From assembly GCA_040902655.1 (NCBI GenBank), contig JBBDWV010000045.1, positions 37,369-89,914 of the forward strand: DNA of 52,546 bases, given 5' to 3'. Under the pieces are notes generated by a model, which worked only from the letters and a program-made list of their open reading frames with translations, did no database searches and was not told the DNA's origin. Source of the stretch: Mycobacteriales bacterium (GTDB lineage Bacteria > Actinomycetota > Actinomycetes > Mycobacteriales > SCTD01). Below are positions 40,895 to 51,588 of this stretch, in pieces. Position 1 is the stretch's first letter; the number at the start of each line of letters is the position of its first letter. The translations under genes and the position numbers were made by a program.

Positions 40895-43800
40895 GTGGGG
40901 ATGAAGGACGTGCTGCTCGGCTGGCCGGTCTACCGGCAGCTGACGGGCGAGGACCCGCTGGGGCGCGGGGCCGCCGCCCGGTCCGGCCGCACCGCCGGTG
41001 TGCAGCCGCGGACCGCGACGGCGGACCGCGTCGTGCAGAGCGTCTGTCCCTACTGCGCCGTCGGCTGCGGTCAGAAGGTCTTCGTGAAGGACGAGAAGGT
41101 CGTCCAGATCGAGGGCGACCCGGACTCACCGGTCAGCCGCGGCCGGCTCTGCCCGAAAGGCTCGGCCAGCGAGCAACTCGTCAACAGCCCCAGCCGCGTC
41201 ACCACGGTGAAGTACCGGGCGCCCTACGCCACCGAGTTCGTCGACATCCCGCTCCAGCAGGCCATGGAGATGGTCGCCGACCGCGTGCAGGCGACCCGGG
41301 ACAGCACCTGGCAGGACGCGGATGACCAGGGGCACACGCTGCGGCGGACCCTCGGCTTCGCCTCACTCGGCGGGGCGACCCTCGACAACGAGGAGAACTA
41401 CCTCATCAAGAAGCTGTTCACGGCTCTGGGTGCGATCCAGGTCGAGAACCAGGCGCGTATTTGACACAGCGCCACCGTCCCCAGTCTGGGGGCCTCGTTC
41501 GGCCGTGGCGGCGCCACGAACTTCCAGCAGGACCTGCAGCACAGCGACTGCATCGTCATCCAGGGCTCCAACATGGCCGAGTGCCACCCGGTCGGGTTCC
41601 AGTGGGTGATGGAGGCGAAGGCGCGCGGTGCCAATATCATCCACATCGATCCGCGATTCACCCGCACGTCTGCGCTCGCGGACACACACGTCCCGCTGAG
41701 AGCCGGCAGCGACATCGCCTTCCTCGGCGGGATCATCAACTACATCCTGGGCGAGGAGAAGTTCTTCCGGGACTACGTCGTCTCCTACACCAACGCCGCG
41801 AGTCTGGTCTCCGAGGACTTCCAGGACGTCGACGAGCTCGACGGCCTGTTCTCCGGCTACGACCCGGAGACCGGGACCTACGACACCGCGAGCTGGGGGT
41901 ACGAGGGGCACGAGGTCAACGCGGCGGCAGGCAACGCCCGCGCACCGATGACCGGCTCCGAGGACGACCAGAGCGGCCAGCAGAGCAGCGCCAGCAGCGA
42001 GAGCGACGAGCAGTCCGAGAAGAGCAGCGCCAGCGGCCACGAGCTGGGCGGCCGCGGGGCCAACCTGGAGCACAGCCGGGTCCGGCGCGACGAGACGCTG
42101 CAGCACCCCAGGACGGTCTTCCAGGTGCTCAAGCGGCACTACGCCCGCTACACGCCGGAGCTGGTGGAGCAGGTGTGCGGGGTCCCGCAGGAGCTGTTCC
42201 TGCAGGTCTGCGAGGCGGTGACCGCCAACAGCGGTCGCGACCGCACCACCGCCTGGGTCTACTCCGTCGGCTGGACGCACCACTCGGTGGGCGTGCAGTA
42301 CATCCGCGGTTCGGCGATCATCCAGCTGCTGCTCGGCAACATGGGCCGGCCCGGCGGCGGCATCCTCGCCCTGCGCGGCCATGCCAGTATCCAGGGCTCG
42401 ACCGACATCCCGACGCTGTTCAACATCCTGCCCGGCTACCTGCCGATGCCCAAAGCCGGACGGCAGGACAGGTACGCCCACTACCTGCGTAACATCGCCA
42501 CCCCCGGCCAGAAGGGGTTCTGGTCGCAGGCCGACGCCTACACCGCCAGCCTGCTCAAGTCCTGGTGGGGAGACGCGGCCACGCCGCAGAACGACTTCTG
42601 CTTCGACTACCTGCCACGGCTGACCGGCGACCACGGCACCTACCAGACCGTCTTCGACATGCACGACGGCCGGGTCGAGGGCTACTTCCTCGTCGGCCAG
42701 AACCCTGCCGTCGGATCCGCCCACGGCAAGCTCCAGCGGCTGGCCCTGGCCAAGCTGAAGTGGCTGGTGGTGCGCGACCTGCAGCTGATCGAGTCCGCGA
42801 CGTTCTGGAAGGACGGGCCGGAGATCGCGTCGGGGGAGTTGACGACCGAGCAGATCGGCACCGAGGTGTTCTTCTTCCCCGCGGCGACGCACGTGGAGAA
42901 GGAGGGCAGCTTCACCCAGACGCAGCGGATGCTGCAGTGGCGGCACAAGGCGGTGGAGCCGCCGGGCGATGCCCGCAGCGAGCTGCATTTCTACTACCAC
43001 CTGGGCAGGCTGCTCCGGCAGCGTTACGCCGGCTCCACGCAGGACAAGGACCGCCCGCTGCTGGACCTGACCTGGGACTACCCGACCCACGGGGTGACGC
43101 AGGATCCGGACGCCGACGCGGTGCTGCAGGAGATCAACGGTCGTTACCTGACCGGCGACAAGGCCGGGCAGCACCTGCCGGGCTTCACGGAGATGAAGGC
43201 CGACGGGTCGACCTCGGGCGGCTGCTGGATCTACTGCGGCGTGTATGCCGACGGCGTGAACCAGGCCGCCCGCCGCCGGCCGGGACGGGAGCAGAGCTGG
43301 GTGGCGCCCGAGTGGGGCTGGGCCTGGCCGATGAACCGCCGCACGCTCTACAACCGGGCCTCCGCCGACCCGGAGGGGCGGCCGTGGAGCGAGCGCAAGG
43401 CCTACGTCTGGTGGGACGAGCAGGCCCGGCGGTGGACCGGCCACGACGTCCCGGACTTCCAGCTGACCAAGCCCCCGGACCACCGCCCCGAGCCGGGCGC
43501 GAGCGGTCCGGACGGCATCGCGGGCGATGACCCGTTCATCATGCAGGCCGACGGCAAGGGCTGGCTCTACGCGCCGGTCGGGCTGCTCGACGGGCCGCTG
43601 CCGGCGCACTACGAGCCGGCCGAGTCACCGGTCCGCAACCCGCTCTACACCCAGCAGGCCAGCCCCACCCGGCAGGTGTTCAAGCGGCAGGACAATCTGC
43701 AGAACCCGTCCGGCCACGAGCCCGGCGGCGAGGTCTTCCCGTACGTCTTCACCACCTACCGGCTGACCGAGCACCACACGGCCGGTGGCATGAGCAGATG

Positions 43801-44245
43801 GCTGCCGTACCTGTCCGAGCTGCAGCCGGAGATGTTCTGCGAGGTCTCGCCCGAGCTGGCCCGCGAGCGTGGGCTGGAGCACCTGGGCTACGCGACGATC
43901 GTCACGGCGCGCGCCGCCATCGAGGCGCGCGTGCTGGTCACCGACCGGGTCGTGCCGCTGACGGTGGGCGGCCACACGATTCACCAGATCGGGCTGCCCT
44001 ACCACTGGGGCGTCGGCGGCGACGCCGTCGTCAGCGGCGACTCCGCGAACGACCTGTTCGGCCTGGCCCTCGACCCGAACGTGCACATCCAGGAGTCCAA
44101 GGCGGCCTCCTGCGACATCCGCCCGGGACGACGTCCCACGGGGCCGGCGCTGGTGCGTTTCGTCGAGGACTACGTCACCCGTGCCGGGATCACCACGGAC
44201 ACGGGCAACACGCGGCTGACGCCGCACGAGGGGGCGCAGCAGTGA
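40895..44245 (+). CDS. fdhA: Formate dehydrogenase catalytic subunit, selenocysteine-containing
   Basis: Oxidises formate to CO2 at a Mo- or W-bis-pterin centre. Read through the UGA at codon 190 it has 1116 residues. The N-terminal [4Fe-4S] site is Cys51, Cys54, Cys58 and Cys86 (CPYCAVGC and RLCPKG). The active site is ENQARI-Sec-HSATV, the typical sequence of FDH-N/O-type enzymes. The molybdopterin domains follow, with ending motifs GLPYHWG and ESKAASCDIRPG. GTG 40895 lies 6 bases after AGGAGG. No twin-arginine signal is present at the N-terminus. Residues about 338-396 form a Ser/Asp/Glu-rich insertion compared with the E. coli enzymes as I remember them. Without selenocysteine the protein would end after 189 residues. 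Confidence 0.95.
41462..41464 (+). other. In-frame UGA selenocysteine codon of the formate dehydrogenase
   Basis: TGA stands exactly where FDH-N/O proteins carry Sec or Cys, between ENQARI and HSATVPSLGASFGRGG, and the frame continues without interruption for another 926 codons. The presence of a tRNA-Sec gene 10 kb downstream supports recoding rather than a nonsense mutation. Confidence 0.93.
41470..41510 (+). promoter_or_regulatory. Candidate SECIS element after the UGA codon
   Basis: An outer 6-bp stem (41470-41475 with 41505-41510) and an apical stem (41477-41482 with 41488-41493, including four C-G pairs) enclose the loop AGTCT. The loop begins 18 bases after the UGA. Bacterial SECIS hairpins have a similar distance and a G and U exposed in a short apical loop (AGGUCU in the E. 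coli fdhF element, as I recall). A large bulge on the 3' side is unusual. Confidence 0.6.
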
Positions 44246-45270
44246 GCAACTCCTTCTCTGGCCCGCTGGCCGACCCGGCGGCCGACGCCGGTTGGGTCGA
44301 CGGCGAGCGCCAGCCCCGCAAGGGCTTCTTCACCGACACGTCGATCTGCATCGGTTGCAAGGCCTGCGAGGTGGCCTGCAAGGAGTGGAACGCCATCCCC
44401 GACGACGGGATGAACTTCCTGGGCTCGTCCTACGACAACACCGGTGCACTGGGTGCGAGCACGTGGCGGCACGTCGCGTTCATCGAGCAGCCCAAATCCT
44501 TCGGCACCCAGGAGCCCGGCATCGCCGGCACGCCGGTCGGGCCGCCGGCCAGCGACGTGCTCAACAAGACCTCCGACAGTGCGCTGTCAGGGGACCGGAG
44601 CAGCCTGGGCACGTCGAACAAGGTCGACCTCGGCCTCCCGAGCACCACCCTGCCCGGGGACGCCGAGGGCGCGCAACGCACCGAGTTCCGGTGGTTGATG
44701 GAGTCTGACGTCTGCAAGCACTGCACCCACGCCGCCTGCCTGGACGTCTGCCCCACCGGCGCGTTGTTCCGTACCGAGTTCGGAACCGTCGTCGTGCAGG
44801 ACGACATCTGCAACGGCTGCGGCTACTGCGTTCCCGCCTGCCCGTTCGGGGTGATCGACCGCCGGGTCGGCGAGAAGGGCGTGACGAAGAACGAGGGGCT
44901 GGCCCAGAAGTGCACCCTGTGCTACGACCGGATCGGCACGGGCCTGCAGCCGGCCTGCGCCACCGCCTGCCCCACCGAGTCGATCCAGTACGGCGACGTG
45001 GACGAGCTGCGTGAGCGGGCGCAGCGACGGGTCGACGCGCTGCACGCGGAGGGGGTGCACGACGCCCGGCTCTACGGCGAGAACAGCCACGACGGCGTCG
45101 GGGGGCTCGGCGCGTTCTTCCTGCTGCTCGACGAGCCGGAGGTCTACGGCCTGCCGCCGGACGCGGTCGTGACCACGAAGGACCTCCCCGAGATGTGGCG
45201 CAGGGCAGGCCTCGCTGCGGTGACGATGCTCGCCGGTGCGATCGCGGTCTTCACGGGGGGTGGCCGATGA
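44242..45270 (+). CDS. fdhB: Formate dehydrogenase iron-sulfur subunit
   Basis: 342 residues. Four [4Fe-4S] clusters are expected from four cysteine groups: CIGCKACEVACKEW (38-51), CKHCTHAACLDVCP (155-168), CNGCGYCVPACP (191-202) and CTLCYDRIG with PACATACP (223-246). It carries electrons from the catalytic subunit to the membrane anchor. The C-terminal hydrophobic stretch (AAVTMLAGAIAVF) may be a membrane helix, as in FdnH/FdoH. An insertion of about 60 residues between the first two cysteine groups is Ser/Thr/Gly-rich. The GTG start overlaps the fdhA stop. Confidence 0.94.
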   Translation: MSNSFSGPLADPAADAGWVDGERQPRKGFFTDTSICIGCKACEVACKEWNAIPDDGMNFLGSSYDNTGALGASTWRHVAFIEQPKSFGTQEPGIAGTPVGPPASDVLNKTSDSALSGDRSSLGTSNKVDLGLPSTTLPGDAEGAQRTEFRWLMESDVCKHCTHAACLDVCPTGALFRTEFGTVVVQDDICNGCGYCVPACPFGVIDRRVGEKGVTKNEGLAQKCTLCYDRIGTGLQPACATACPTESIQYGDVDELRERAQRRVDALHAEGVHDARLYGENSHDGVGGLGAFFLLLDEPEVYGLPPDAVVTTKDLPEMWRRAGLAAVTMLAGAIAVFTGGGR

Positions 45271-46313
45271 GCCGGGCCGGACACCGGTCCGGGCGGCGCG
45301 GTGACAAGAACGCCGTCGTCCCGGATGCCGAGTTCACCTCCTACTACGGCCGGCCGATCGTCAAGGCGGCGCCGTGGGAGGTGGACATCCCGGCCTACCT
45401 GTTCCTCGGCGGCGTCGCGGCCGGTTCCTCACTGCTGTCGGCCGGGGCCGACCTGACGCAACGGCCGGCCCTGCGCCGCACCGGCAGGCTGGGAGCGCTC
45501 GTCGGGTTGGCCCTCAGCATGGTGGCGCTGGTCCACGACCTGGGCCGGCCCGCCCGCTTCCACCACATGCTGCGGGTCGCCAAGCCCACCTCGCCGATGT
45601 CGGTCGGCACGTGGATCCTGACCGCGTACGGGCCGTTCGCGGGGCTGGCCGCCGCGGCCGAGCTGCGGCGGTTCATGCCGCGGCGGGTCCGTGAGGGAGC
45701 TCTCGGCAGGCTGCTGGGCGCCTCGGCGCGCCCGGCCGGGCTGGTCGCCGCGGGCCTCGCTCCCGCCGTCGCCTCCTACACCGCCGTGCTGCTGTCGGAC
45801 ACCGCGACACCCACCTGGCACGACGCCCACCGTCAGTTGCCGTTCGTCTTCGTCGGCTCGGCCTGCGCCGCCTCCGGCGGGCTCGGCCTGATCGGCGCAC
45901 CTGTCGCCGAAGCCGGCCCGGCCCGCCGGCTGGCCGTCGGGGGAGCGCTGCTCGAGCTGGCCGTCGAGCAGCAGATGGAGCGGTCGATGGGCATCACCGC
46001 CGAGCCGCTGCACGCCGGCCATGCCGGGACGCTGATGCGGACCAGTACGCTGCTCACCGCGGCCGGTGCGCTGGGCGCCGTCGTCGGCCGCCGCAGCCGT
46101 GCCGCCTCCGCCCTGTCGGGAGCGGCGCTGCTCGCCGGCTCGGCCTGTCTGCGCTTCGGCGTGTTCGAGGCGGGGCAGGAGTCGGCGCGCGACCCGAAAT
46201 ACACCGTCGTGCCACAGCGCGAGCGCCTCGACCGCCGCCGGCAGGACGACCATCCGGGCGGCAGATCCGCTGCCCGCAGCAACCCAGGAGGAGTAACGAC
46301 GTGGCAGCCCTGA
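45267..46313 (+). CDS. nrfD: NrfD-type membrane anchor subunit
   Basis: 348 residues with about eight hydrophobic segments. YLFLGGVAAGSSLLS and the VHDLGRPARFHHMLRV motif are typical of NrfD/PsrC proteins, which pass electrons to quinone without heme. It replaces the cytochrome b subunit (FdoI type) of the enterobacterial enzyme. The C-terminal 35 residues are hydrophilic and variable. The start overlaps fdhB and the end overlaps the MFS gene by 13 bases, so the operon is translationally coupled. Confidence 0.92.
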   Translation: MSRAGHRSGRRGDKNAVVPDAEFTSYYGRPIVKAAPWEVDIPAYLFLGGVAAGSSLLSAGADLTQRPALRRTGRLGALVGLALSMVALVHDLGRPARFHHMLRVAKPTSPMSVGTWILTAYGPFAGLAAAAELRRFMPRRVREGALGRLLGASARPAGLVAAGLAPAVASYTAVLLSDTATPTWHDAHRQLPFVFVGSACAASGGLGLIGAPVAEAGPARRLAVGGALLELAVEQQMERSMGITAEPLHAGHAGTLMRTSTLLTAAGALGAVVGRRSRAASALSGAALLAGSACLRFGVFEAGQESARDPKYTVVPQRERLDRRRQDDHPGGRSAARSNPGGVTTWQP

Positions 46314-47737
46314 GCTTCCTGGACCGCGAGCACTCGTGTGCCAGGCCCGGCTACAGCCGGTGGCTGGTGCCGCCGGCCGCCCTGGCGATCCACCTGTCGA
46401 TCGGCTCGGTTTACGCGTTCAGCGTCTTCAAGAACCCGCTCGTCGAGCACTTCGCCGTCAGCGACACCGCCATCGCCATCGTCTTCTCCATCGCCATCGT
46501 GATGCTCGGTCTGGCCGCGGCCTTCGGCGGGACGTGGATGGAGCGCAACGGTCCGCGCAAGACCATGGCGCTGTCCACTGTCTGCTTCACCGGAGGTTTG
46601 GTCGTCGGTTCGCTCGGCATCGCGACCGAGCAGTTGTGGCTGCTCTACCTGGGCTACGGCGTCCTCGGCGGGATCGGCCTGGGGATGGGCTACATCTCCC
46701 CGGTGTCGACGCTGATCAAGTGGTTCCCGGACCGGCCGGGCCTGGCGACCGGGCTGGCCATCATGGGCTTCGGCGGCGGTGCCTTCATCGCCTCCGCCCT
46801 GTCGAACGAGCTGCTGCAGGCCTACACCTCCCGCCCGGCCGGCGAACAGCCGACGGACGCGCTCGTCCCGACCTTCCTCACCCTTGCCCTGCTCTACGCC
46901 GCCTTCATGACGTTCGGCGTCCTGACCGTCCGCATCCCTCCGGACGGCTGGCGGCCGCAGGGGTGGGTGCCGAGGACGGAGACGGCCGGCGGCATGCGCA
47001 CCACCGCGAACGTCTCGGCCAAGCAGTCGCTGCACACGCCGCAGTTCTGGTTCCTGTGGACGGTGCTGTTCTGCAACGTGACCGCGGGCATCGGGATCCT
47101 CGAGCAGGCTTCGCCGATGATCCAGGACTTCTTCCCGGACGAGGTGTCGCCTGCGGCGGCCGCAGGCTTCGTCGGGCTGCTGTCACTGTTCAACATGGCC
47201 GGCCGGATCGTGTGGTCCTCGACCTCCGACGTCATCGGGCGCCGACCGACCTACATGCTCTACCTCGGCGTCGGCGCGGTCGCCTTCTTCTTCCTGGCCA
47301 CGGCCGGATCCACCAGCGTGCTGCTGTTCATCGTGCTGTCCGCGATCATCCTGTCCTTCTACGGCGGAGGCTTCGCCACGATCCCGGCCTACCTCAAGGA
47401 CATGTTCGGCACCTTCCAGGTCGGCGCGATCCACGGCCGCCTGCTCACCGCCTGGTCGGCTGCCGGCGTCGCCGGACCGCTGATCGTGAACGTCATCCGG
47501 GAGCGGGCCGAAGATGCCGGTCTGGAGGGCGCCGCGACCTACCGGCCGTCGCTGCTGGTCATGGTCGGCCTGCTCGTCGTCGGCTTCGTCGCGAACCTGC
47601 TCATGCGCCCGGTGGCCGCCAAGCACCACGTCGCGGAGGACGGCGCGGCGCCCTACTCGAACGAGCTCGAGGGAGCGGCCGCCGCCACCCCCGGCGCCTC
47701 CCCGACCGACCGACCCACCTCCGGAGGTACGCAGTGA
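46301..47737 (+). CDS. MFS transporter of the oxalate/formate antiporter (OxlT) type
   Basis: 478 residues with twelve hydrophobic segments. The N-terminal signature SIGSVYAFSVFKNPL, the RNGPRKTM loop between helices 2 and 3, and GMGYISPVSTLIKWFPDRPGLATG match the OxlT family. Next to a formate dehydrogenase, formate (or oxalate/formate exchange) is a sensible substrate guess, but the family also carries other carboxylates. The last 50 residues are a hydrophilic tail. The GTG at 46301 follows GGAGGAG at seven bases. Confidence 0.92.
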   Translation: MAALSFLDREHSCARPGYSRWLVPPAALAIHLSIGSVYAFSVFKNPLVEHFAVSDTAIAIVFSIAIVMLGLAAAFGGTWMERNGPRKTMALSTVCFTGGLVVGSLGIATEQLWLLYLGYGVLGGIGLGMGYISPVSTLIKWFPDRPGLATGLAIMGFGGGAFIASALSNELLQAYTSRPAGEQPTDALVPTFLTLALLYAAFMTFGVLTVRIPPDGWRPQGWVPRTETAGGMRTTANVSAKQSLHTPQFWFLWTVLFCNVTAGIGILEQASPMIQDFFPDEVSPAAAAGFVGLLSLFNMAGRIVWSSTSDVIGRRPTYMLYLGVGAVAFFFLATAGSTSVLLFIVLSAIILSFYGGGFATIPAYLKDMFGTFQVGAIHGRLLTAWSAAGVAGPLIVNVIRERAEDAGLEGAATYRPSLLVMVGLLVVGFVANLLMRPVAAKHHVAEDGAAPYSNELEGAAAATPGASPTDRPTSGGTQ

Positions 47738-47868
47738 ACAGCTCGTCGGCAGAGGACATGACCGGACTGAAGGCACGTCTGATCGGCGCCTGGCTGTTCG
47801 TAGGCGTGCCGCTCGCCTACGGCGTCGTCATGACGGTGAAGAAGGCCCTGCCGCTGTTCACCGGCTGA
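47734..47868 (+). CDS. MFS transporter small subunit (44 residues)
   Basis: A single-helix mini-protein: 13 polar residues, then LIGAWLFVGVPLAYGVVMTV as membrane span, and a short basic end (KKALPLFTG). Its GTG overlaps the MFS stop, behind CCGGAGG. Genes for similar 40-60 residue proteins follow OxlT-type carriers in other bacteria and are annotated as small MFS subunits, as I recall. The stop codon lies within the hairpin shared with the convergent AOR gene. Confidence 0.8.
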   Translation: MNSSSAEDMTGLKARLIGAWLFVGVPLAYGVVMTVKKALPLFTG

Positions 47869-47894
47869 GGCTGTTCGGTCCGCTCCTCAGCCGG
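47861..47894. terminator. Bidirectional hairpin containing both stop codons (MFS subunit and AOR)
   Basis: CCGGCTGAGG (47861-47870) is perfectly repeated in inverted form (47885-47894) around a 14-base loop. The TGA of the small MFS subunit (47866-47868) and the TGA of the convergent AOR gene (complement at 47887-47889) occupy matching positions in the two arms. Confidence 0.6.
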
Positions 47895-49659
47895 CAGGCG
47901 GTCTTCCGTGCCCGTCCAGGCCGCGGGCGCTCCAGTAGGCGTCGACCATCGCACGCAGCCGCGCGGGCGTCAGCGTCGCCGTGCGACCCGAGGTCAGCTG
48001 CAGGTCCTGTGACAGGAAGCGGTCGGGGAGCCAGTCGTCCTCGGGCTGCCAGCCCTCGCGCAGGTTGAACGCGCGCTTGAGCAGCACGATCCGCTGGGCG
48101 GTGGCGCGAAGTTCCGCCTCGTCGACGTCCCAGCCGGTCACCGACGCCAGCAGGGCCGCCCACTCGGCGAACGGCTCCTCGAACACGCCCCGCAGGAACT
48201 TGCAGAGGATCAGCGAGTCCATCACGGCGCTGCGGTCCTCGGCCTCGATCGCGCCGCGCACGTGCGCCTCGCCGCCGGAGAGCCGGTCGAGGTCGCCCGA
48301 CAGGTCGGCTTCGTACGCGCCGGATCGGTTGTGGTCCGCGCCGCGCGCGTTCACGGCCATCCCGAGGGCCATCGCCTGCATCGTCCGGGGCTCGTAGCCC
48401 GGCAGCTCGAGGCCCTTGACGTGCGCCGCGAACGCCGCCGATCCCTGCCCCACCACCTGTGCCGCGGCACGGCTGCCGAGCGAAAGCAGCGGACCCAGTC
48501 CCTGTCCGGAGCCGATCTCGTCGAGGGCGCGCAGCAGCGCGGCGCCGTCGCCGAACCGGAGCCAGGGTGCGTCGATCAGCCCGCGCTCCGCGCACTCCAT
48601 CGCCCAGGCGATCGTGCCGCCGGCCGAGATGGTGTCGATGCCGAGGTCGTCGCAGCGGGCGCTGGCCGCGAGCACGTCGTCGGGGTCGGACACGCCGCAC
48701 ATCGGCCCGAGCGCGCTGACGTTCTGGTACTCCATCCGCACGGTGCGGCCGCCCTTGCCGCGGTAGATGTGCTCGCAGCCGATGGCGCACGAGGCGCACG
48801 AGCTCTTGGTCACCGACCGCGCCTGCGCGAGCTCCTCCGCCGCGAGCTGCGGCGCGCCGTCGAAGCTCGCCTGCTGGAAGTTGCGCGTCGGCAGGGTGTT
48901 CAGGGCGTTGAAGGCCAGTACGTTGGCAAGAGTGCCCACCTCCCGGTACTTCTGGGTCGCACGGCCGAGGGACTTCTCGCGCAGGTCCCGGGCGGCGGCC
49001 AGCACGGCGGCCGGGTCGGCCGGCGCCACCTTCGTGGTCGCATGAACAGCGAGCGCCTTGACGTTCTTGGCCCCCATCACGGCGCCGAGGCCGCCCCGGC
49101 CGGCGTGCCGCCCGTCGTGGGAGATGGTGGCGTAGCGGACGCCGCGCTCGCCGGCGCTGCCGATGGACGCGACCTGCCAGCCGCGTCCGAGTTGCTCGCG
49201 AACCGCCGCCTCCGCTTCAGCCGCCGACCGGCCCCATTGTGCGCGGGCATCGAGCAGCCGCACCTGGCCGCCGTCGACGACGACCGTGACCGGCGCCGAC
49301 CCGGCCCCGACCAGGATGATCGCGTCATGGCCGGTGAGCTTGCCGGCGATCGCGAAGTGGCTGCTGGCCAGGGCGTCGGTGAGCATGCCGGTCAGCGGTG
49401 ACTTGGCGACCACGGCGAACTTCGCGCTCGTGGTCAGTGGGGTGCCGACCAGGGGGGAGAAGACGAAGGCCAGCGGCGCCTCCGGGGCCATGGGGTCGAC
49501 GCCCGGGGGGGCGAGCTCGAGCAGCAGCCAGGCGCCGAGGCCGGCGCCGCCGAGGTGGTCGCGCAGCACCTGTTCGGGCAGCGGCAGGACCGACGTCGAC
49601 CCGTCGCCGACGTCGACGACGAGGGCGCGACCGAAGTAGCCGCCCGGCGTGTCAGCCAC
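47887..49659 (-). CDS. Aldehyde ferredoxin oxidoreductase family protein (tungsten-type)
   Basis: 590 residues of the AOR family, enzymes that oxidise aldehydes to acids with a bis-pterin tungsten (rarely molybdenum) cofactor and one [4Fe-4S] cluster. Cluster ligands are Cys288, Cys291 and Cys295 (CASCAIGC) and Cys486 (DSLILCKF). The N-terminal pterin-binding part shows GGYFGRALVVDV, HLGGAGLGAW and GRGGLGAVMGAKNVKALAV; the second pterin region has ARGADHNRSGAY. Start GTG 49659 lies inside the end of the mobA-like gene. Its ferredoxin partner is not encoded next to it. Substrate unknown. Confidence 0.93.
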   Translation of the reverse strand: MADTPGGYFGRALVVDVGDGSTSVLPLPEQVLRDHLGGAGLGAWLLLELAPPGVDPMAPEAPLAFVFSPLVGTPLTTSAKFAVVAKSPLTGMLTDALASSHFAIAGKLTGHDAIILVGAGSAPVTVVVDGGQVRLLDARAQWGRSAAEAEAAVREQLGRGWQVASIGSAGERGVRYATISHDGRHAGRGGLGAVMGAKNVKALAVHATTKVAPADPAAVLAAARDLREKSLGRATQKYREVGTLANVLAFNALNTLPTRNFQQASFDGAPQLAAEELAQARSVTKSSCASCAIGCEHIYRGKGGRTVRMEYQNVSALGPMCGVSDPDDVLAASARCDDLGIDTISAGGTIAWAMECAERGLIDAPWLRFGDGAALLRALDEIGSGQGLGPLLSLGSRAAAQVVGQGSAAFAAHVKGLELPGYEPRTMQAMALGMAVNARGADHNRSGAYEADLSGDLDRLSGGEAHVRGAIEAEDRSAVMDSLILCKFLRGVFEEPFAEWAALLASVTGWDVDEAELRATAQRIVLLKRAFNLREGWQPEDDWLPDRFLSQDLQLTSGRTATLTPARLRAMVDAYWSARGLDGHGRPPAG

Positions 49660-50494
49660 CGGCGTCGGCCGACAGGAAGGTCACGACGTCACCCTGCACC
49701 AGCGGCGTCTCGACGTCGCGGACCACCTGGTCGCCGTCGACGGCCGCCAGCAGGTGGCGGTCGAGCACGAGCCCGACGGCCTGGGCGGCGGCGCCCAGGG
49801 TGGCGGCGCGCACCGTCGTCGTACCCGTGCCGCCGGCCGCGGCCAGCACCCCGATCCGCTGGACCACCACCTCCGGGGCGGGTCGGGCGCGCGCCTGCGC
49901 GTACGCCGTCCGGTCGTTGACACCGGTGACGGAGGCCAGGTCGGGGTCGCCGGCCCGCAGTCGGGCGTCCTCCAGCAGGACGGCGTCGTCCAGGACCCGC
50001 ACGGCGGCGTGCTCGAGCAGGAACGCCGGCCGGGCCCGGTCCTGCGCGAGCAGGTCCAGCGCGGCCTGGGCGAGGGTGGTGCGGTAGGCCGCGGCCAGCG
50101 GCTGGCGGAAGCCGTGGACGACGGGCAGCGCGATGTCGGCGGAGTCGAGGGCGCCGGTGACGCGGCGCACGAACGCGGGATGCAGGAACGGCAGGTCGGT
50201 CGAGCAGACGAAGGCGGCCTCCGCCTGGCCGGCGAGCGCGCCGAGGCCGGCGGCGAGACCCTGCAACGGCCCGCGTCCCTGCTCGGCGTCGTCGATCACC
50301 TCGACGGACGGGGGGATCGGCGGCAGCTGCTGGCCGGCCGCCCGCACCACCAGCACGGGACCGTCGACGCCACGCGCCAGCACACCGACCACGCGGCGCA
50401 GCAGGGTCGAGCCGTGCCACTCGAGACCGGCCTTGGAGCTGCCCATACGCGAGGAGCGACCCCCCGCCAGGACGACCGCGCCGACCACTGGCAT
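49652..50494 (-). CDS. mobA: MobA-like nucleotidyltransferase fused to a MoaD/ThiS-like domain
   Basis: 280 residues. The first 200 are MobA-like (molybdenum cofactor guanylyltransferase): nucleotide loop VVLAGGRSSRMGSSKAGL (7-24), CSTDLPFL with the metal-binding aspartate (97-104), FRQPLAAAYR (129-138) and the end motif VTGVND (189-194). Residues 208-280 look like a complete ubiquitin-like MoaD/ThiS domain with DGDQVVRDVETPLVQGDVV and the terminal SADAGG. A di-glycine end is needed for sulfur transfer in molybdopterin synthesis. It is the first gene of an operon with AOR. The ATG at 50494 is supported by a TAGGCT box seven bases upstream. Confidence 0.85.
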   Translation of the reverse strand: MPVVGAVVLAGGRSSRMGSSKAGLEWHGSTLLRRVVGVLARGVDGPVLVVRAAGQQLPPIPPSVEVIDDAEQGRGPLQGLAAGLGALAGQAEAAFVCSTDLPFLHPAFVRRVTGALDSADIALPVVHGFRQPLAAAYRTTLAQAALDLLAQDRARPAFLLEHAAVRVLDDAVLLEDARLRAGDPDLASVTGVNDRTAYAQARARPAPEVVVQRIGVLAAAGGTGTTTVRAATLGAAAQAVGLVLDRHLLAAVDGDQVVRDVETPLVQGDVVTFLSADAGG

Positions 50495-50559: not shown

Positions 50560-51342
50560 TTGCTCGACCTCACCGGTACCTCGTCTCTCGTCACGGGCGG
50601 CGCGTCCGGCCTGGGTGAAGCCACCGCGCGTGCGCTCGCCGCCCGCGGCGCCTCCGTGGTCGTCGTCGACCTGAACGACGAGAAGGGGGCGGCGGTAGCC
50701 GGGAGCATCGGCGGCGGATACGTGCGGGCGGACGTCACCGACCCCGGGCAGGTCGCGGCCGCCGTCGCCGCGGCCGAGGAACACGGGCCGCTGCGCACGC
50801 TGGTCTGCGCCGCCGGCATCGCCTGGGCCAGCCGCACCGTCGGCCGCGACGGCACCTTCGACTCGGCCCACGACCTGGGCGCCTTCACCAAGGTGGTGAC
50901 GGTCAACCTGATCGGCGCGTTCAACTGCATCCGCCTCGCCGCGACCGCCATGGGCCGCACCGAGCCGGTGGACGCCGACGGCAGTCGCGGCGCGATCGTC
51001 ACGCTGGCCTCCGTGGCGGCCTTCGACGGCCAGATCGGCCAGGCCGCCTACTCCGCCAGCAAGGGCGGCATCGTGGGCATGACCCTGCCGGTGGCCCGCG
51101 ACCTGGCCGCCGTCGGCGTCCGGCTGAACTGCGTGGCACCCGGGTTGTTCGACACACCGATCTACGGCGAGGGGGCGGCAGCCGAGGAGTTCAAGGACAA
51201 GCTCAAGCGCGACGTGCTGTTCCCCAAGCGGCTGGGCGCCGCCGACGAGCTGGCGTCGATGGTCGTGGAGTTGCTCGTGAACTCCTACGCCAACGGCGAG
51301 GTGGTGCGCATCGACGGCGGCGCCCGGCTGCAGCCGAAGTAG
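50560..51342 (+). CDS. Short-chain dehydrogenase, 3-hydroxyacyl-CoA dehydrogenase type II-like
   Basis: 260 residues from TTG 50560, six bases after AAGGAG. The NAD-binding loop is TGGASGLG (11-18), acidic residue DLND follows, and CAAGIA replaces the NNAG motif. The catalytic set is Ser (LASVAAFDG), Tyr and Lys (YSASKGG). The segments DLGAFTKVVTVNLIGAFNCIRLAA and VAPGLFDTP resemble human HSD10-type enzymes that act on 3-hydroxyacyl-CoA, but substrate is not proven. The gene is divergent from mobA and upstream of tRNA-Sec. Confidence 0.92.
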   Translation: MLDLTGTSSLVTGGASGLGEATARALAARGASVVVVDLNDEKGAAVAGSIGGGYVRADVTDPGQVAAAVAAAEEHGPLRTLVCAAGIAWASRTVGRDGTFDSAHDLGAFTKVVTVNLIGAFNCIRLAATAMGRTEPVDADGSRGAIVTLASVAAFDGQIGQAAYSASKGGIVGMTLPVARDLAAVGVRLNCVAPGLFDTPIYGEGAAAEEFKDKLKRDVLFPKRLGAADELASMVVELLVNSYANGEVVRIDGGARLQPK

Positions 51343-51378: not shown

Positions 51379-51471
51379 GGAGGCGTACGCGTTCCTGGTG
51401 GGCGCCCCGGTCTTCAAAACCGGTGAGGGTCGGTATCCGGTCCTGGTGGGTTCGATTCCCATCCGCCTCCG
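51379..51471 (+). tRNA. selC: tRNA-Sec (anticodon TCA)
   Basis: 93 bases, without encoded CCA. The anticodon loop CTTCAAA carries TCA, complementary to UGA, on a CCGGT/ACCGG stem. Features specific for selenocysteine tRNA are present. The D stem is six base pairs with a 5-base loop. The variable arm is long (8 bp with loop TAT, including two G-T pairs). The acceptor stem GGAGGCGT faces CCGCCTCC and so could be 8 bp, but the eighth pair is T-C. The T arm is GTGGG-TTCGATT-CCCAT and the discriminator base is G. selA, selB and selD are not in the window. Confidence 0.95.
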
Positions 51472-51588
51472 CTCTGCCTGCTGACCTGCGGCAGCGGGGC
51501 TACGAGGACCGCTCGCCGCGGAGGTGCTCGCAGCGAGGTGGGTCCGCGAAACCTCGAGTGCGCCGAGGCAGGCGCGTCGCCGGTCCGG

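Follow-up and report, generated by a model that had tools for sequence, protein, structure and literature searches.

A selenocysteine formate dehydrogenase unit beside an aldehyde oxidoreductase-family protein with glutamine at the Glu313 position in an actinomycete

Does the adjacency of a formate dehydrogenase (FDH) and a member of the aldehyde oxidoreductase (AOR) family in an actinomycete reflect one metabolic module or two units with separate histories? The question is raised by a window of 52,546 nucleotides, the whole stretch of DNA analysed here (G000:C45:37369-89914), which comes from a draft actinomycete genome of 3.56 Mb (G000) whose closest named relatives are genomes from metagenomes that bear the labels Frankiales, Frankineae or Mycobacteriales. 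An earlier note had proposed a joint module for formate and aldehyde oxidation, and the genes that it named are all present: an FDH alpha subunit, a 4Fe-4S beta subunit, NrfD, a major facilitator superfamily (MFS) carrier, an AOR (PF02730 and PF01314) and a MobA-type gene. We consider it fairly probable, from comparative sequence evidence, that the locus combines formate respiration with a formerly FDH-coupled AOR whose chemistry has changed.

The formate dehydrogenase unit

Five plus-strand genes, in the order fdhA, fdhB, nrfD, MFS carrier and MFS small subunit, overlap their neighbours by 4-13 bases, and because each overlaps its successor we read them as one operon. The first, fdhA (40895-44245), encodes the predicted alpha subunit of a selenocysteine (Sec) FDH of 1116 amino acids (aa). 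Its frame is broken only by the UGA codon at 41462-41464 (Sec190), where the list of open reading frames divides the gene in two; two separate reading frames were ruled out, and we treat fdhA as a single selenoprotein gene with an in-frame UGA. The part after the UGA alone scores 1532.4 bits with NF041513 (formate_DH_Act), over the cut-off of 1400. With TGA translated as U, the motif reads ARI-U-HSATV, and alignment places the Sec opposite the X of the D. gigas FDH (1h0h), at the metal-ligand position; the fdhA genes of relatives have their UGA at the identical position. The codon and a hairpin resembling a selenocysteine insertion sequence (SECIS) occupy 41459-41520 on the plus strand (CCCCAGUCUGGGG). 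The Rfam SECIS_3 match after the UGA is weak (28.4 bits, E 0.0075, gathering score 63), and the single-strand fold of the region is no better than that of shuffles (z -0.41). The earlier note had named neither the selenoprotein nature of fdhA, nor the 44-aa MFS small subunit, nor the missing catalytic Glu of the AOR. In one relative (G019, L020), the FDH alpha gene contains a TAG in addition to the Sec UGA and is a pseudogene or an assembly error.

The Sec machinery is distributed over the genome. A tRNA-Sec (UCA) lies in the window (51379-51472, plus strand; ARAGORN, and Rfam tRNA-Sec at 76.3 against a threshold of 47), and SelA and SelB are found on contig C58, beside S-(hydroxymethyl)mycothiol dehydrogenase (MscR), a formaldehyde-oxidising enzyme. 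MscR and an MBL-fold hydrolase stand directly behind SelA-SelB both there (L142:1-1751) and in genome G022 (L135:2690-4443). SelD, on contig C5 (L146:1471-2424), is itself a predicted selenoprotein, since the stretch read has an in-frame UGA at its residue 21; the SelD found beside FDH in relatives, by contrast, is of the Cys type. The SelD and SelAB loci yielded no Rfam matches. Upstream of SelA on C58 (L144:1510-3966), two paralogous peptides of 66-67 aa and a protein of 581 aa are encoded, possibly a modified-peptide cluster.

The second gene, fdhB (44242-45270), encodes a 4Fe-4S electron-transfer subunit (TIGR01582 161 bits, under the cut-off of 334.7), and nrfD (45267-46313) a membrane quinone-reacting subunit (PF03916 69.4 against 25.8). 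NrfD proteins hand electrons to quinone. Inspection of the FdhA translation by eye revealed no twin-arginine leader, and the enzyme therefore probably faces the cytoplasm. E. coli FdnGHI and the tungsten (W) FDH of D. gigas similarly pair an alpha subunit with an Fe-S beta chain, and the Sec falls at the aligned position of 1h0h, but the FDH of the window differs from both in the lack of a visible leader. FdnI of E. coli is a cytochrome b, in whose place the unit described here has NrfD. A closer counterpart is FDH1 of Actinomycetospora chiangmaiensis, an organism in which formate removal needs selenium: in the excerpted account (PMC7176365), an actinobacterial Sec-FdhA, FdhB, a gamma subunit, a permease and Sec genes likewise share one region, although SelA-SelB there lie inside the FDH1 cluster and the excerpts mention no AOR. 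That G000 might also encode an NAD-type FDH was considered and rejected: the 36% match on C58 scores best as the assimilatory nitrate reductase NasC, while staying under the cut-off of the NasC model.

The carrier gene (46301-47737) is followed by an MFS transporter small subunit of 44 aa (47734-47868, plus strand; NF047966 47.3 against 24). The carrier scores 347.8 with the SfMCT L-lactate MFS model NF049980 (cut-off 320) and remains under the cut-offs of both oxalate/formate antiporter models (TIGR00890, 186.5 < 374.85; TIGR04259, 132.6 < 335). The OxlT-type identity and oxalate import suggested for it are therefore not supported, and the scores favour a monocarboxylate-type carrier. In genome G009, a formate/nitrite-channel protein (L137:7338-8237; 219.4 bits, cut-off 232.3) occupies the MFS slot behind NrfD, which favours formate as the putative cargo. 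A related MFS gene also lies upstream of mobA-aor-FDH in two further loci (L042 and L085).

We regard this formate half of the locus, with its Sec-FDH, NrfD, small-acid carrier, Sec genes and nearby formaldehyde oxidation, as solidly predicted. In the mechanism that we propose, the small-carboxylate carrier would import formate, or formate would arise inside the cell; the cytoplasm-facing Sec-FDH would oxidise it to CO2, and the electrons would pass via FdhB and NrfD to quinone.

The AOR-family protein and its position 313

The AOR/tungsten oxidoreductase (WOR)-family protein is encoded on the minus strand (47887-49659, 590 aa). It matches AFOR_N (PF02730) with 200.5 bits and AFOR_C (PF01314) with 338.6 bits, aligns with P. 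furiosus AOR (1aor) at E 3.3e-92, and keeps the [4Fe-4S] cysteines of the CxxCxxxC...C pattern (C288, C291, C295, C486). In this alignment, Glu313 of P. furiosus AOR corresponds to Gln312, encoded by a CAG codon at 48724-48726 (minus strand). Among 99 AORs compared, Gln stands at this position in seven (the window and L036-L041) and Glu in the other 92; the AOR of G019 is a fragment without residue 312 and stands outside these counts. The equivalents of the second-shell residues Thr243, Tyr427 and His448 (T243, Y422 and H443) are intact in all seven Gln-type proteins. At the Tyr312 position, L038 has His and L040 has Asn. Of the 42 other actinobacterial AORs, 40 keep Phe315; the genus of the window has Ser there, and L041 has Val. 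The genus AORs depart from otherwise conserved columns at 12-27 positions and L041 at 14, compared with 2-9 in five comparison proteins.

Glu313 has been described as a residue of the second shell that is conserved and that is the proposed acid-base catalyst (excerpts of PMC12096430 and PMC13328260), and a 2025 review, in the sections available, calls it universally conserved in known AORs, whose proposed mechanisms lean on it. Aldehyde oxidation, which the earlier note had proposed for this protein, is not to be assumed when the catalytic Glu is missing, and because the defining catalytic residue is replaced, we do not file the protein as an aldehyde oxidoreductase. The class I WORs with WorX, such as PfAOR and the aerobic BmWOR, are similar as far as their partial accounts go (PMC13328260, PMC9424855): they have a single large subunit with one [4Fe-4S] motif and a ThiS/MoaD-like partner, and BmWOR also comes from an aerobe. 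The protein of the window differs in that its MoaD is fused to MobA and in its Gln at the Glu313 position, and sister lineages of its genus have an NAD-FDH neighbour.

This fusion, mobA-moaD (49652-50494, minus strand; PF12804), lies directly upstream of AOR and overlaps its start by 8 bases. The cofactor gene of the earlier note thus exists as a MobA-type gene, but it lies beyond the region which that note covered and is a MobA-MoaD fusion. Its C-terminal 87 residues (49655-49915, minus strand, ending in ..AGG) match ThiS weakly (E 0.0064; 17.5, under the Pfam cut-off of 22.5). In a structural model of this domain (pLDDT 83), the top Foldseek matches in the PDB are MoaD of molybdopterin synthase (6jbz_B and 1fm0_D), and a Gly-Gly terminus is shared by 41 of the 42 cluster members; with its modelled beta-grasp fold and this terminus, the domain is predicted to be a MoaD-type sulfur carrier. 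In five loci (L082, L086, L089, L092, L095), AOR is preceded by a free-standing MoaD-like protein from this cluster; in one of them (L095), MobA and MoaD are unfused and side by side.

The FDH unit and the mobA-moaD/AOR unit are convergent, tail-to-tail with 18 bp between their stop codons, and not head-to-head as first described. A perfect 10-bp inverted repeat (47861-47894) overlaps both stop codons, and its stem (47861-47870 and 47885-47894) folds better than nearly all shuffles (z -2.9 and -2.4 on the two strands). The shared terminator proposed earlier is therefore plausible with regard to the stem, but the stem has no T tract and is absent from the listing of the terminator scan; the promoter and terminator scan gave nothing beyond shuffles. 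Divergent from mobA-moaD lies a short-chain dehydrogenase/reductase (SDR) gene (50560-51342, plus strand; PF00106), a neighbour kept in the genus with 83-88% identity in L036-L039. A GGDEF-like reading frame, judged by eye, is found at the contig end (51589-52350).

The NAD-linked FDH operon of other actinomycetes

A scan of genome contigs for AOR returned 69 loci, of which 43 have at least 68% identity, 17 lie at 45-68% and 9 are more distant; the 43 close loci comprise 6 Gln-type and 37 Glu-type. Two loci that end right after AOR (L039 and L065) were excluded from the downstream counts. Downstream sequence of 1.5 kb or more is available for 36 Glu-type loci, and in 34 of them an NAD-FDH alpha gene lies at most 2 kb downstream on the same strand (in L049 it exceeds the TIGR01591 cut-off); the exceptions are L054, with NAD-FDH elsewhere in the genome, and L071, with no close copy. 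Further along, a NuoE-NuoF-type gene (26/28) and a MoeA gene (27/28) follow where at least 5.5 kb can be seen, and MoeA-PBP (22/24) where at least 8.5 kb can. The 17 intermediate loci belong to other phyla, and in 8 of them an FDH-type gene is found no more than 5 kb away; two of these genes (in L079 and L080) encode a Sec-FDH (ARI-UGA-HSS) and are accompanied by a beta gene and a match of the NrfD type. In the phylum sample of 396 genomes searched, the AOR clade is present in five besides G000 (68-76% identity), and a close NAD-FDH (77-84% identity) occurs in precisely these five, on the contigs of AOR; the searches scored two or three candidates per genome, and these counts are lower bounds.

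The AOR clade, therefore, adjoins FDH across bacteria much more frequently than would be expected of a random gene. We take this as strong evidence that the two were functionally tied in the ancestors, which may have been through a common substrate (formaldehyde to formate to CO2), a common cofactor supply or both. MeFDH1 of Methylorubrum extorquens resembles the NAD-FDH of the sister lineages in that its alpha subunit has a Nuo-type N-terminus and its beta subunit is of the NuoEF type. Both are also heterodimers without Sec. The excerpts on MeFDH1 (PMC13197769) mention no AOR, and a MeFDH1-like enzyme is absent from the genus of the window.

An NAD-FDH ortholog was found in none of the 24 genomes of the family, G000 included, where matches reach only 33-37% and are of another type, and in none of the six genomes of L036-L041; in the window, no NAD-FDH alpha gene lies directly downstream of AOR. 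L041 and L043 have flanking genes in common, and L041 shows a clean deletion of the block from NAD-FDH to MoeA-PBP. Right behind AOR in L040 is a MoeA of 378 aa, of the MoeA-PBP type minus the PBP part, which reads as a remnant of a lost NAD-FDH operon. The joint module of the earlier note thus holds in part, since the AOR clade usually lies beside NAD-FDH (34/36), but it is independent of the Sec-FDH present here.

We propose that the AOR unit descends from an actinomycete operon pairing AOR with NAD-linked FDH and MoeA genes. In other actinomycetes, AOR would most likely make an acid, formate from formaldehyde fitting best, that is then oxidised by FDH, and both enzymes would draw on one pterin cofactor supply. 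In the genus of the window, the NAD-FDH block would have been lost, leaving AOR-mobA-moaD in an ancestral Sec-FDH/SelD neighbourhood, with Gln in place of the catalytic Glu and Ser in place of the nearby Phe.

The clustering could instead reflect cofactor supply only, AOR and FDH being held together by a common, scarce chain for tungsten or molybdenum (Mo) pterin and not by substrate hand-over. Such a chain would comprise MobA, MoaD, MoeA and sometimes TupABC; MobA-MoaD adjoins AOR in all 36 assessable actinobacterial loci, MoeA lies behind NAD-FDH, tungstate transporter genes (TupA) are near 6 of 37 Glu-type loci, and a W-specific MoeA route to W-FDH is known from M. extorquens (PMC13197769, in part). 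We find this explanation possible but doubtful: G000 holds a second MobA-like gene, so that the fusion need not be the sole source of molybdopterin guanine dinucleotide, and the carrier genes that recur in the clusters are unexplained by cofactor supply alone. To our knowledge, AOR cofactors are without guanylate, and MobA would therefore serve FDH-type enzymes. TupA is uninformative as proof of tungsten use, being present in 3 of 19 genomes.

Two replacements, their selection and their neighbourhood

The AOR tree was built without the residue-313 column and excludes partial or broken proteins (L074, L093, L095, L109) and distant ones (L096-L104, L112-L133); L105 and L051 are identical. L041 is sister to the Glu-type L043 (support 100/99), and the genus of the window forms a separate clade. 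Forcing the seven Gln-types together costs 42.9 log-likelihood units (approximately unbiased test, p-AU 0.035, for a group chosen after the tree was seen). As it stands, the tree makes the change from Glu to Gln one that arose twice, in the genus of the window and in the unrelated lineage L041, and both events fall where NAD-FDH is missing. Some of the conserved columns that have changed are common to both lineages; the chance of this overlap, calculated post hoc, is about 0.024, with the six genus columns read by eye. In the genus, the ratio of nonsynonymous to synonymous substitution rates (dN/dS) of AOR is 0.20-0.32, compared with 0.12-0.30 in nine comparison pairs, and the gene is under purifying selection by this measure.

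These data also bear on the possibility of relaxed decay, in which AOR became dispensable after the loss of its FDH partner and Glu to Gln was an early inactivating change. The additional changes in conserved columns of Gln-type AORs, the somewhat high dN/dS in some genus pairs and the rarity of AOR in the order (7/298 genomes) would suit it, but no genus copy found has an internal stop, dN/dS stays near that of the comparison pairs, the positions of the Fe-S Cys, Thr, Tyr427 and His448 are intact in all seven, the same residue was fixed twice with Phe315 replaced twice, and the MoaD tail is kept; we judge decay unlikely.

The distribution of the two units speaks to their linkage. Sec-FDH is present in 17 of the 24 family genomes; AOR is present in 7, which all belong to one genus and all have Sec-FDH. 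The seven AOR genomes of the order sample of 298 belong to this genus only, and of the five genomes besides G000 that hold the AOR clade in the phylum sample, just one has a close Sec-FDH. AOR is thus not tied to the Sec-FDH of the window: the independent distribution that the earlier note had named as refuting its module is what is observed for this FDH. Because sister genera (L136, L137) keep FDH-NrfD-carrier-SelD without AOR, this neighbourhood probably predates the arrival of AOR. The arrangement of AOR and Sec-FDH is conserved wherever genus contigs permit a view (L036, L037, L038, L040), with SelD between AOR and the FDH operon; SelD is missing there in the window. A GGDEF/EAL cyclic-di-GMP protein is inserted between AOR and SelD in L036 (5990-9052). 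In G021, FDH is present and AOR was not found, but the contig ends inside SelD. Chance adjacency, with AOR-mobA-moaD having landed in the Sec-FDH region without a functional link, would account for the sister genera that have Sec-FDH and SelD without AOR and for the separate, convergent units, but it is improbable given that every viewable genus member keeps the arrangement and that unrelated phyla also place the AOR group beside Sec-FDH (L079, L080).

Several points weigh against formate respiration combined with a formerly FDH-coupled AOR of changed chemistry. The SECIS score lies under the Rfam threshold, and Sec-FDH is widespread without AOR, so that adjacency in the genus may be a mere common neighbourhood. 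TupA, a marker of tungstate uptake, is absent from all six AOR-bearing genus genomes searched, as it is from several genomes that bear NAD-FDH. The group compared in the clade test was chosen with the tree already in view. L071 has lost NAD-FDH and kept Glu, a loss without Gln, and with three NAD-FDH losses and two Gln events a paired-event test is unable to reach significance. The greater number of changed conserved columns in the genus and L041 also makes relaxed constraint possible. The substrate, metal and electron partners of the AOR, and an altered chemistry after Glu to Gln, are what we infer from sequence.

We tentatively raise a further reading, itself rather unlikely: the Gln-type AORs may be a new functional kind in the tungsten oxidoreductase family, under selection and without the standard oxidation of aldehyde to acid. 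Gln and the loss of the aromatic residue would then have come twice upon loss of the NAD-FDH operon, and the enzyme would perhaps use Mo in place of W, or another carbonyl or one-carbon substrate feeding Sec-FDH. The 2025 review, in the sections available, names one aerobic species as the sole known AOR producer. In the open-licence literature, subscription papers being outside the search, we found no report of a Gln-type AOR or of an actinomycete operon of AOR with NAD-FDH. Such an operon in actinomycetes would extend AOR biology, and a natural Gln version that is under purifying selection and appears to have arisen twice offers a direct test of the Glu313-based AOR mechanism.

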